Below are positions 10,684 to 16,818 of a stretch of DNA of 35,194 nt, in pieces (the stretch's first letter is position 1; every line of letters starts with the position of its first letter). The position numbers were made by a program, and so were the translations under genes. The stretch is from an uncultured archaeon (lineage in GTDB: Archaea; EX4484-52; LFW-46), in NCBI GenBank assembly GCA_902384675.1, contig CABMCT010000011.1, positions 1 to 35,194 of the forward strand, written 5' to 3'. The notes below the pieces were generated by a model. It did no database searches and was not told the DNA's origin. It worked only from the letters and a program-made list of their open reading frames with translations.

Positions 10684-13600
10684 CTACTTCGCCTCAAACT
10701 TACCCAACCCCAGCTGCCTTGCCTTTTTCCCGAACAGGCTGTCGACGTCTTTTTCAAGAAGCGAGAACTGCTGGAAGAGATACGGCGATATCTTGTATTT
10801 CTCGATAATGTGCTTTGTAGGCTCGATGTACTTGCGTATAGCGCCTTCTGATACCGAAAGCATGAGCTTTCCGCCGCAATAGCACTTACCTATAAGCGGC
10901 ACCCTGCGGTATTTCGCATTGCACTGGCTGCAGCGCACCTTCTGCTCTGAAAACGTGCGCAGGTTCCCTTTTATATCCCGCAAAAAGTGCTTTGAAATCA
11001 CTGCTTCTGCAACAGAGTCCTTATTCACGGCAACTATTTTCTCGGCCAAGGACAGCTGTGCGCTGACTTTATCTTTCATGCTGCCGAGTTCGACATACTT
11101 GGTCCTGATGGGCGCATCATTGACGCTGGTGGTATCATGAGTGAACTTTATGTGAAATACTTCGGGAGTCTTAATCACATCCGCAACAAGGCGCGGTTTT
11201 TTAGTAAGCTCGGATATCGTCTTATAGCCCATTGTTGCTTCGTAAAATTCAAGAGGATATGAAGAGGAAACATCAACCTTCCATGCCTCATCGTCCACTT
11301 CCTCAGGGTTTAGCTTGCTTGTAAGAACAAGAGGTGCATCCATTGTCCTTCCGCCTCTTGTATCCGGCAGGAACTTGCGCGAGAAATTAAGCAGTGCATC
11401 CATTAAAAGCATTATAGAGTCTTCGTCACCGTCGCAGTTGCGCCTCTTTCCTGCGTGCCAGAACGGGTGCGCATAGCAGACCTTTGACGGGGTAAAGCCG
11501 ACAATTCTGCCTACGATTCCTGCGGATGTATGCGGAGCAAGCCCCACAACCAGCCGCCCCACAAGGTCCTCTTTTGAGTTTATATTATAATAGGGTTCTG
11601 TTCCGTAGACTTTGACAAGAAGGTCGTCTATGAATTTGCTGACATTAATCATATAATTGACAGAGGAGAACTCGTCGTTATCCGAAATGACTATATCCTG
11701 CACTTTAAGCTCAAGAACCTGGTTCTCGTTCGCAAGCGCGTTTCCAAGATAATCATTCTCATATCCTATGGACTTCAGGCGCTCTACAGACACATTCAGT
11801 TCTGAGGGCTTGAAATGCGTCATCGAAATGTCAGATGCGTCGTATCTTGTTGTGCCGTCTTTGTTCACATACAGCTCGTATTTTGTGCGCAGGACCCCTT
11901 TCTCAAGGCATTCTATGCTTCGCTCAGGGCCTGAAACTCCTCGCACGCCCTTGAATAACTTGGGACGCTCCACAATTGCTGCATTCTTGAATGCGCTGTC
12001 AAGAAGCTCTTTTAATTTGATTGTCCGCTTTCTGTATTTTTTGGTCGGCTGGTTGCAGTGCATTTTCGCGTCCACAAGCGCATTGCATGACTGGCAGACA
12101 TTCATGGCTTTGCCCCTGCTATTGCATTTTGGGCATAAAGGAAATATCGATTCGGTGCTGCATGAAGGACACCTGAACACAGGAAATTCCGCGGTCACCT
12201 TGTCGGCAGAATACGCCTCTATCAGGTTTCTCATTTTTCCTCCTTCTGTTCCGCAGGGGAAAAGTATTTGCGGCCTTCCTTTTAAGAGCCGCTTTTCAGC
12301 CTTCTCCGGCCTGCCCATTCTCATGCCTATTCTTGTCAGGCCCCGCTCGCGTATTTTTATGCCGGCAAGTTTTGTTATTGCAGACATTACAGTGGCTTCA
12401 GGCTCTATTGAGGAAATCAGGGCATTGACATTTTCAGGGTTCGGTTTTCCAAGCGAGTAAAATGCTCCAAGAGACTTTCCGGAGAGTGTGACCTTGTTGT
12501 CTTTTACAGTACACGGGACACAAAGGATTTCAAGAATCCGCAAAGCCCCGGATTTATTCAGGCCCCGCCGCTCCTCACCATCTGCATTATCGATAGTTCC
12601 TGTAGAAAACCATAAGATAAGTTCTTTTAGTTCGTCTACTGTTATATCGTGCCAGAAAAAGTTGTACTCCGGATGAAGCGGAATATCAAGTTCGCGCGAC
12701 ATTTTGAATGCCTCATCAAGTGTAGGGGGCTTGGAAATATAGTTATCAGGAGAATAAGTAGTAGTTTTGCCGTCAACTGCCTTTTTCAATTCCAGAAGCC
12801 ACCACTCCTCGCAATAAGCAGACGGCATAAGCATGTGGTTGTTTGATACAAATTCTCCGTAAGGAACAAGCACGTCGCCCATTGACAGAATCGAGACGAC
12901 ATTACTCTTGTTTTCGCGCACCTCTTTGTGGGTTTTCAATTCAAGAATACTGCCGCTACGCAATTTGACAACAGGCGGCTCTATTGTATCGCAGGGAGCG
13001 CATACAGTGGCTTTTCCCGGAAATTCTGTTGCAATCTGCGTTCCGACAGCAATAAATTCAGTAAGCCACATAGCGGCAGAATGTATTGAAGTGGCCGCAA
13101 GCCCCCCTGTTCTTGAGCGTCCATACCTTAAGCGAAACCCGCCGCGTTTTGAAGGATGCGAAAATATGGGCCTTCCTGCCAGGACTTTTGAAAGATACGT
13201 GTCTTTTGGAGTATATTTTGCCGCATTAGGATTATCCTTGAGCTCCACTTTTTTTGCCGCATGGATGCTGTTTTTCAGCTTCACGAAATCCGCAAGCCAA
13301 AACCAGTTTTTAAGGTCGTAATCGTCGGGATACTTCTTTACCCGCCCCAGGACCTTCTCTGCCTTAAGCGGTATGCCGTCAAGCAGAATCAGGCACATTC
13401 CCCCGCGGATTTTGTTTGTCTCAACACGCGGCAGGTCCTTGTAATTCGAGACTTCCAATTCCTCTGTAGGGTCTCCTGTAATCTCCACAGGCACGTTTTT
13501 TACAATCACGGTCATTTCTTCCTTTGTCGGATGATATTGCTTCGCTGCAACGCGATTATAATAATCCTCTACTTCCGCAAAATACCTGTTGACCTCAATT

Positions 13601-14154
13601 TCCGAGGGCTTATAAGCATCAAGCTTTAGCGCTTTTCTTATGAAGTCCGCTGCCAGGACAGAAATTGCAGACGCTGTTCCCCCTGCAGAGCGGATGGGCC
13701 CTGCATAGTAAACCGCCAGATAGTCTGTTCCGTCGTCGTTCTTCTTGATTTTCACTGCGGATATGCCTTCAAGAGGCGCTGTTACAACGCCAAGCGTAAG
13801 ATATGCCACAGCAGTGCGCAAGCCCACTTCTGCGAATTTTTCCCTGCTTCCAAAATCGCCATACTTTCCTATGGCAACATCGCGGCCGATAAGAAGCGCC
13901 ACACGCTCGTCGTTTTTGCCGTACTGCTCCTCAAGAACCCGGATTCCTTCCTTAAGCCCGGAGCCGAATAATGTCGGAAAAAACGTGGAAATAAGGCCTT
14001 CGACCCGCGCTGCAAGGTCCTCTGCAAGAAGAATTTCAACTGTTGTCTCCGGGTCCCTGCCCTTTTTGCGCGCAACGCCTGCAATAGAATATGCTTTTTC
14101 GACCTCTGCCTGTATTGAGTCAAAGTATTTTTGCGTTTCTGCATCGGTCTGCAT
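10684..14154 (-). CDS. polC: DNA polymerase D (family D) large subunit DP2
   Basis: 1156 aa; AVYYAGPIRSAGGTA, RRNCDGDEDSIMLLMDALLNFSRKFLPDTRGGRTMDAPLVLT, zinc-finger cysteines; no intein seen. Confidence 0.96.
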   Translation of the reverse strand: MQTDAETQKYFDSIQAEVEKAYSIAGVARKKGRDPETTVEILLAEDLAARVEGLISTFFPTLFGSGLKEGIRVLEEQYGKNDERVALLIGRDVAIGKYGDFGSREKFAEVGLRTAVAYLTLGVVTAPLEGISAVKIKKNDDGTDYLAVYYAGPIRSAGGTASAISVLAADFIRKALKLDAYKPSEIEVNRYFAEVEDYYNRVAAKQYHPTKEEMTVIVKNVPVEITGDPTEELEVSNYKDLPRVETNKIRGGMCLILLDGIPLKAEKVLGRVKKYPDDYDLKNWFWLADFVKLKNSIHAAKKVELKDNPNAAKYTPKDTYLSKVLAGRPIFSHPSKRGGFRLRYGRSRTGGLAATSIHSAAMWLTEFIAVGTQIATEFPGKATVCAPCDTIEPPVVKLRSGSILELKTHKEVRENKSNVVSILSMGDVLVPYGEFVSNNHMLMPSAYCEEWWLLELKKAVDGKTTTYSPDNYISKPPTLDEAFKMSRELDIPLHPEYNFFWHDITVDELKELILWFSTGTIDNADGEERRGLNKSGALRILEILCVPCTVKDNKVTLSGKSLGAFYSLGKPNPENVNALISSIEPEATVMSAITKLAGIKIRERGLTRIGMRMGRPEKAEKRLLKGRPQILFPCGTEGGKMRNLIEAYSADKVTAEFPVFRCPSCSTESIFPLCPKCNSRGKAMNVCQSCNALVDAKMHCNQPTKKYRKRTIKLKELLDSAFKNAAIVERPKLFKGVRGVSGPERSIECLEKGVLRTKYELYVNKDGTTRYDASDISMTHFKPSELNVSVERLKSIGYENDYLGNALANENQVLELKVQDIVISDNDEFSSVNYMINVSKFIDDLLVKVYGTEPYYNINSKEDLVGRLVVGLAPHTSAGIVGRIVGFTPSKVCYAHPFWHAGKRRNCDGDEDSIMLLMDALLNFSRKFLPDTRGGRTMDAPLVLTSKLNPEEVDDEAWKVDVSSSYPLEFYEATMGYKTISELTKKPRLVADVIKTPEVFHIKFTHDTTSVNDAPIRTKYVELGSMKDKVSAQLSLAEKIVAVNKDSVAEAVISKHFLRDIKGNLRTFSEQKVRCSQCNAKYRRVPLIGKCYCGGKLMLSVSEGAIRKYIEPTKHIIEKYKISPYLFQQFSLLEKDVDSLFGKKARQLGLGKFEAK

Positions 14155-14196: not shown

Positions 14197-14310
14197 AGCC
14201 CTGGGCGCGAAATCCCCGCGCGAATCATGTTTTAAATAATGAAACGCGCGATTTGAACGCACGACCTTTACCTTACCAAGGTAACGCTCCACCAGCTGAG
14301 CTACCAGGGC
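14197..14310 (-). tRNA. tRNA-Thr(GGU) interrupted in the T-arm at 59/60; exon1 14252-14310, insert 14211-14251 (41 nt), exon2 14197-14210
   Basis: Minus strand GCCCUGG-UA-GCUC-AGCUGGUG-GAGC-G-UUACC-UUGGUAA-GGUAA-AGGUC-GUGCG-UUCAAA|[41 nt]|U-CGCGC-CCAGGGC-U. Acceptor, D, anticodon and T stems pair when the insert is removed; 73-nt mature length. Confidence 0.88.
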
Positions 14311-14433
14311 ACAATGTAGTGAATTCAAAAACATATGACACTTATTCCCTATATGTTTTGAATTCCCGCATTTCCGAAATGCTCACGCATTTCCTCATTT
14401 CGGAAATAAGGAAATACGGATAGTATTTCCGAA

Positions 14434-14472
14434 ATAGTCAATCCAATGAATCGATTGTTGTAAATTGACTAT
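14434..14472. repeat. Hairpin ATAGTCAAT...ATTGACTAT
   Basis: 9-bp perfect inverted repeat with an inner CAAT/ATTG stem. Confidence 0.6.
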
Positions 14473-15692: not shown

Positions 15693-15843
15693 TATAATAT
15701 CAGTTGGCCAATGCAGGGGTAGCCAAGCGGTCAACGGCGGTGGACTCAAGCAACAACTCGATTGCATTGAGTTATGAGCCGGCAACGGCGATGAAATAAA
15801 GAAATCCACTCTCCTAGCGAGTTCGAGGGTTCAAATCCGGTTT

Positions 15844-15868
15844 CTTTCTCTTTTGGAAAAAGAGAAAG
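15844..15868. repeat. Hairpin inside tRNA-Leu insert 2: CTTTCTCTTTT-gga-AAAAGAGAAAG
   Basis: 11-bp perfect inverted repeat. Confidence 0.7.
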
Positions 15869-15876
15869 ACAAGTCA

Positions 15877-15894
15877 TTCCAACTGCGGTTGGAA
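15877..15894. repeat. Family Y palindrome inside tRNA-Leu insert 2: TTCCAAC-TGCG-GTTGGAA
   Basis: 7-bp perfect stem; GGTTGGAAAGCTT (15887-15899) is identical to 15605-15617. Confidence 0.7.
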
Positions 15895-15897
15895 AGC

Positions 15898-15918
15898 TTT
15901 TGAAGCAAAGCTTCAAAA
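15898..15918. repeat. Hairpin inside tRNA-Leu insert 2: TTTTGAAGC-AAA-GCTTCAAAA
   Basis: 9-bp perfect inverted repeat; CAAAGCTTC also occurs at 15553-15561. Confidence 0.7.
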
Positions 15919-16008
15919 TCCGGGTAGAAAGAGAAAACGAGTGGCCGCGCTTCGCGAGGTCACAAAACTACCTAACGCCGGTAAAAATCCCTTCCCCTGC
16001 ATGCTATT

Positions 16009-16530: not shown

Positions 16531-16710
16531 AAGTTCCAGTATTAATATATATGCACTTTACTATATAATCTTTTACTCGCGTTGCTTAAATGAGAACTTT
16601 TTCGTGACAAATATCTAAGTTTTAAATCTTTGAATGATAAAGTTGTCATGAAACCGCTGCAATAGTTTTATGCTCCGCTCGTGCAAAAGCTGCACCATCG
16701 AAAGTTTTGC

Positions 16711-16782
16711 GGACCTATAGTCTAATGGATAGGACACGGCCCTGCGGAGGCCGAAATCCGGGTTCGAGCCCCGGTAGGTTCG
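16711..16782 (+). tRNA. tRNA-Arg(GCG), intronless
   Basis: GGACCUA/UAGGUUC acceptor, GUCU/GGAC D-stem, CGGCC-CUGCGGA-GGCCG anticodon arm, CCGGG-UUCGAGC-CCCGG T-arm; CCA not encoded. Confidence 0.95.
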
Positions 16783-16818
16783 TTTCTAACTATTTGCACA
16801 GATTAAGGCTGTCAGACT

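Follow-up and report, generated by a model that had tools for sequence, protein, structure and literature searches.

A 41-nt T-loop insert in an archaeal tRNA-Thr(GGU) gene and the dispersed structured introns that share its site

Introduction

A tRNA-Thr(GGU) gene whose T-arm is broken by 41 additional nucleotides raises two linked questions, namely whether the gene still yields a working tRNA and how the insert came to occupy its place. The gene lies on the minus strand of the window, by which we mean the whole 35,194-nucleotide stretch of DNA from an uncultured archaeon analyzed here. Introns at position 59/60 and the transposition of introns between tRNAs are both known from Thermoproteales, by a mechanism called unknown in the review that describes them, which says the same of the large-scale spread of archaeal tRNA introns (PMC4090602). 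A second source reports that 92-95% of the tRNA genes in some Asgard genomes are interrupted (PMC11291895).

Here, we argue with confidence somewhat short of certainty that the gene is functional and apparently single-copy, that it carries a spliced 41-nt intron of the bulge-helix-bulge (BHB) type, and that this intron sits at a site favored by a structured, apparently mobile family. Introns at 59/60 have been described in archaea before; the novelty lies in the accompanying dispersed family of structured introns.

The interrupted tRNA-Thr(GGU) gene

The locus comprises the following features.

14252-14310, minus strand: exon 1 of tRNA-Thr(GGU), tRNA positions 1-59, 59 nt, with the 3' end UUCAAA
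14211-14251, minus strand: intron of tRNA-Thr(GGU), 41 nt, at 59/60, UCGCGCG...CGCGCGGGGAUU
14197-14210, minus strand: exon 2 of tRNA-Thr(GGU), 14 nt, UCGCGCCCAGGGCU, consisting of U60, the 3' T-stem, the acceptor strand and the discriminator
10684-14154, minus strand: gene for the DNA polymerase II large subunit DP2, which adjoins tRNA-Thr on its downstream side and serves as the synteny anchor with the sister species

The first-pass annotation of this DNA had proposed that a complete minus-strand tRNA-Thr(GGU) is obtained only when 41 nt are removed at 59/60, and this holds: the sequence is as described, and in silico removal leaves a 73-nt tRNA that ARAGORN calls as tRNA-Thr(ggt). The expected exon junction of the spliced product is UUCAAAUCGCGCC, also written UUCAAAUCGCGCCCAGGGCU. 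The unspliced gene receives no ARAGORN call, with introns allowed or not, because the insert sits outside the anticodon loop, and Rfam recovers only an internal piece (14303-14246, minus strand, 41.8 bits). Among other readings of the locus, a circularly permuted or split tRNA was dropped, the exon order being normal, and a group I intron was rejected, the introns having no match to the group I covariance model of Rfam; no other Rfam family was matched by the introns either. Directly upstream of the gene (14322-14440), the window holds two inverted repeats, one formed by GAATTCAAAAACATAT...ATATGTTTTGAATTC and the other by copies of ATTTCCGAAAT.

The same annotation had asked for a check that no other tRNA-Thr(GGU) exists in the genome. 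The gene has one match in its own assembly, which is 89% complete and in 76 contigs, and the census of tRNAs in this genome, resting on targeted searches and selected stretches, is incomplete. Two tRNAs of this genome are unusual: one (L015 1501-1578) was read as Asp(GUC) and has a variable arm of great length, and the other (L007 1501-1573) has the anticodon AUC.

A sister species fixes the joint

From the window alone, the joint is ambiguous by 6 nt, with UCGCGC present at both ends of the intron. The Thr gene of a sister species of the same genus (G001) departs right after UUCAAA, which fixes the joint at 59/60. The two loci are syntenic, with the same DP2 gene adjoining (89.6% protein identity over the part compared), and the DNA near the Thr locus is 71-80% identical between the species. 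The exons of the two Thr genes are identical base for base, and in G001 they enclose a different, unrelated insert of 113 nt at 59/60. Exons that stay identical while the intron between them differs entirely are to be expected of a gene that is selected and spliced.

Within the order, the T-arm of tRNA-Thr is intact in most members where the gene was found. One member (G003) carries an unrelated 47-nt intron at 59/60, and its congeners G009 and G014 have none there.

These comparisons bear on the rival view in which the interrupted gene is a pseudogene or a product of misassembly, with the working tRNA-Thr(GGU) located elsewhere. The incompleteness and fragmentation of the assembly speak for this view, as does the failure of annotation programs to find the gene. 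Against it, the exons are identical in a species whose neighboring DNA has diverged by at least 20%, no second copy was found in either genome, and the joint and its helix are common to 23 other T-loop introns, so that we consider this view very improbable. As far as sequence comparison can tell, the interrupted tRNA-Thr(GGU) is most likely a functional intron-bearing gene.

The splicing signal and the enzymes

To characterize the signal at 59/60, 24 T-loop introns were collected, 13 from the own genome, 10 from G001 and one from G003. When UUCR (positions 54-57) is set against the four bases before the 3' bulge, 95% of the cells pair across these introns, and sliding the 3' side by 1-12 bases lowers pairing to 22-55%. 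The helix also shows compensatory change, with C opposite G57 in all three introns of G57 tRNAs and mostly U opposite A57.

In the Thr intron, the layout fits 3-nt bulges that would be cut between their second and third nucleotides (AA/U and UU/U), but the intron is among those with weaker central helices, with three of four pairs formed (U-A, U-G, C-G and an A-G mismatch, the last common to Glu(CUC) and Arg(CCU)). In the minimum-energy fold, the central helix opens as a 6x6 internal loop (-22.6 kcal/mol, vs -14.4 kcal/mol for the BHB as drawn). A BHB intron at 59/60, as the first-pass annotation had read the insert, stands as the best reading, and the inner and outer helices are indeed perfect; its "clean fit" does not extend to the central helix, which carries a mismatch and is not part of the minimum-energy fold.

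Both enzymes that splicing would call for are encoded in the own genome, namely the splicing endonuclease EndA, by one gene (as in every order member where it was found), and the ligase RtcB. Compared with EndA of M. jannaschii, the enzyme has two order-wide insertions. The first, GK(W/I)(V/I)EEEK or a near variant, is found where crenarchaeal and ARMAN enzymes have their loop (ASL/CSL), and the second, NPYKxGxK, lies between catalytic Tyr and His. The EndA of the genus (L071 1474-2226; L174) additionally bears a long N-terminal extension, being 250-271 aa from the first ATG, and most aligned order members have proteins of 183-197 aa.

In ARMAN-2, the EndA loop contains Tyr160 and Lys161, which are required for cutting, and moving this loop into another EndA widens specificity (PMC12397907). 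The enzyme described here resembles the epsilon-2 EndA of ARMAN-2, which bears the ARMAN-specific loop, in having lineage-specific insertions near the active site with Tyr and Lys residues; it differs in being a single short alpha-like protein, with NPYKxGxK between the catalytic Tyr and His and a short GKWVEEEK at the ASL/CSL position. A single EndA with two lineage-specific insertions can reasonably be predicted to be a broad-specificity enzyme of simple subunit type.

The conservation of the exons against the turnover of the introns, the covarying helix of 24 introns and the presence of EndA and RtcB genes together make a BHB intron the best reading of the insert. The endonuclease would excise the 41-nt intron from the precursor at a relaxed BHB, and RtcB would rejoin the two tRNA-Thr exons; all 24 T-loop sites are presumably cut by EndA.

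The 59/60 BHB introns of Thermoproteales and other archaea reviewed in PMC4090602 share with those described here the position, the exact T-loop joint, the BHB-type helix and the occurrence of several introns per tRNA. The present host differs from those described there in belonging to an order related to DPANN-labeled genomes and in having one EndA gene, and the present introns differ in the relaxed central helix of Thr and in the long structured elements that share the joint.

A dispersed family of structured introns

A second interrupted tRNA in the window, which had been claimed alongside the first, is real: tRNA-Leu(CAA) carries an insert at the same T-loop joint as Thr.

15713-16001, plus strand: tRNA-Leu(CAA), with two introns, one in the anticodon loop (53 nt by ARAGORN) and one in the T-loop
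15836-15987, plus strand: T-loop intron of tRNA-Leu(CAA), 152 nt, a full member of the dispersed structured family
15843-15869 (approximate), plus strand: Y:R1 pyrimidine-purine hairpin fold in the Leu intron
15920-15938 (approximate), plus strand: CCGGGUAG and the mirror purine tract R2 (AGAAAGAGAAAA) in the Leu intron
16710-16783, plus strand: tRNA-Arg(GCG), an uninterrupted neighbor

Several introns of the own genome are homologous to one another even though they lie in different tRNAs. With a covariance model of 11 copies, about 16 family places were found per genome in the two genus members and nothing convincing in the rest of the order, near-threshold matches in the order members G002, G008 and G015 being too weak to be accepted. 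In the own genome, the T-loop places are Ala, Asp, Ser(GCU), Ser(GGA), Leu(CAA), Leu(CAG), Pro(GGG), Pro(CGG), Pro(UGG) and Arg(UCU), and in G001 they are Thr, Ala, Asp, Ser(GCU), Ile, Leu(GAG), Pro(GGG) and Pro(CGG); the family also occurs in the anticodon loop of Ser(CGA). Seven further copies lie outside tRNA genes, each beginning immediately behind the TAA that ends an open reading frame (L202, L203, L114 and L117 in the own genome; L169, L204 and L205 in G001). Family introns measure about 107-215 nt, their ends pair with each other, and their last nucleotides are complementary to the UUCR of the T-loop. Both species carry the element in inverted orientation in tRNA-Ser(GCU).

A different repeated element lies 3' of many tRNA genes and consists of a hairpin, then GCCGAGAGC or a close variant, a short stem, and then GCGAACGGAT; examples are L003, L005, L009, L011, L019, L025 and L159 in the own genome and L122, L123 and L128 in G001.

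Orthologous sites exchange long and short forms: the Thr intron has 41 nt here and 113 nt in G001, and the T-loop intron of Leu(CAA) has 152 nt here and 33 nt in G001, the 33-nt form consisting of the family termini alone. The 113-nt Thr insert of G001 is a full family member. In the 41-nt Thr intron, the Y:R1 hairpin, the linker and the mirror tract R2 are all absent, and its resemblance to the family is confined to the shared site and a short 5' GUUUC. It is a serious possibility, though one against which we lean, that the 41-nt intron is of the ordinary BHB kind and has no relation to the family beyond the site; its body lacks the family core, and G003 has an unrelated 47-nt intron at the same position where its congeners have none. 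What tells against such independence is that G001 holds a full family member at the very Thr site and that its short Leu(CAA) intron keeps the family termini. The simplest reading of the short forms is the loss of the core with splice-competent ends left behind.

How the family came to be dispersed admits several answers. Old, vertically inherited T-loop introns, differing between species through fast sequence drift and length change, would account for the filling of Ala, Asp, Ser(GCU), Pro(GGG), Pro(CGG), Thr, Leu(CAA) and Arg(CCU) in both species and for the inverted orientation common to both at Ser(GCU). We nevertheless judge pure descent rather unlikely, since Ile(GAU) and Leu(GAG) are filled in G001 only, homologous sequence is spread over many tRNAs of different identity and also follows seven coding-gene stop codons without a gap, and the T-arms of tRNA-Thr are intact in most order members found. 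Related introns in different tRNAs could alternatively have spread by gene conversion or at the RNA level. Spread as RNA, through reverse splicing at BHB-compatible sites followed by copying into DNA, would fit the placement of every T-loop copy exactly at an EndA-compatible joint; it seems improbable to us in view of the backwards copy in tRNA-Ser(GCU) of both species, which is not expected from reverse splicing of a sense intron, and of the family copies outside tRNA genes.

In this genus, the T-loop joint is a docking site preferred by the structured introns, and their paired ends, together with 3' nucleotides complementary to UUCR, would let an insertion be spliced out. Less certainly, in the mechanism that we favor, the structured introns would be mobile at the DNA level, with the 41-nt Thr intron as a short occupant of the site, probably a remnant after core loss.

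Earlier work offers two points of comparison. Work from 2010, as cited in PMC4090602, had found closely similar introns in tRNAs of different identity, with the mechanism stated to be unknown; what the present family has beyond that account is inverted copies, copies after stop codons, a covarying core and the exchange of long and short forms at orthologous sites. In Caldiarchaeum, according to PMC3293823, the same isoacceptor, tRNA-Thr(GGU), has gained an intron that the authors link to mobile DNA, at 24/25 and with an integrase-type element proposed, unlike the small non-coding elements at 59/60 described here. In the literature searched, which covered few subscription journals, we found no description of the inverted copies, the stop-codon copies or the mirror core.

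Orthologous sites in the genus range from empty to short, long or inverted, and the element is recognizable, so that its gain, turnover and loss can be followed directly, and the Thr locus offers a testbed for how tRNA introns move.

The core of the family

In the family core, a pyrimidine tract (Y) forms a hairpin with its Watson-Crick partner (R1), and beyond a linker there follows a second purine tract (R2). The latter is the parallel complement of Y and thus the mirror image of R1, a relation that holds in four sequence classes. The hairpin and the closing helix covary, with two-sided changes in 10 of 22 predicted pairs. A control pattern with reversed R2 was uninformative, long R2 tracts satisfying both patterns, and parallel and antiparallel matches were therefore compared string by string and with shuffled partners; two copies without R2 were left out of this mirror test. 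Across 25 genus copies, R2 matches on average 97% in parallel vs 81% in antiparallel orientation, and with partners swapped among the copies the match is 82% (s.d. 2.5, maximum 91%, 5000 trials). With its third strand running antiparallel to the purine strand, the core has the geometry of a purine-motif triple helix, and such a putative helix could form here.

Cores in other archaea

A degenerate pattern of hairpin and R2 has matches in 55 of 397 archaeal genomes, with at most 27 in one, some places being counted twice. Of 75 distinct non-symmetric matches, 64 fit better in the parallel orientation, none in the antiparallel, and 11 are tied, on a pattern that slightly favors parallel by fixing the first four letters of R2. 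In 71 distinct cores, chosen for their R2 match, the bases before Y pair with the linker over a mean run of 4.07, a value reached in 0 of 2000 trials with shuffled partners (mean 3.34, s.d. 0.10). A core pattern gave six matches in viral contigs, all rejected as chance, with no surrounding hairpin.

When 20 stretches were inspected, the core lay inside 23S or 16S rRNA genes in four and inside or directly beside tRNA genes in several (examples of distant cores are L255, L257, L260, L261, L263, L264 and L265). The rRNA introns sometimes have cores at both ends in inverted orientation, which suggests the ends of DNA elements, and elsewhere cores are sometimes in tandem. The distant cores may share common descent with the genus family or architecture alone. 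The mirror-tract core, which recurs in other archaea within rRNA and tRNA genes, may represent a new structural module.

Tentatively, and with rather more doubt than conviction, the T-loop introns may be envisaged as undescribed small mobile elements of DPANN-like archaea that target tRNA and rRNA genes and are hidden from selection by EndA splicing. Their three-strand core would comprise a short variable helix, the pyrimidine-purine hairpin and the mirror purine tract, the latter possibly lying in the groove as a triple helix recognized during movement or splicing, and the 41-nt Thr intron would be a stripped end state.

In two of the distant stretches (L254 409-600 and L271 340-620), the first 13-15 nt of a tRNA gene, in both cases a CAU tRNA, are repeated just before the core, immediately 5' of the intact tRNA, a pattern that resembles duplication of the tRNA 5' end upon integration.
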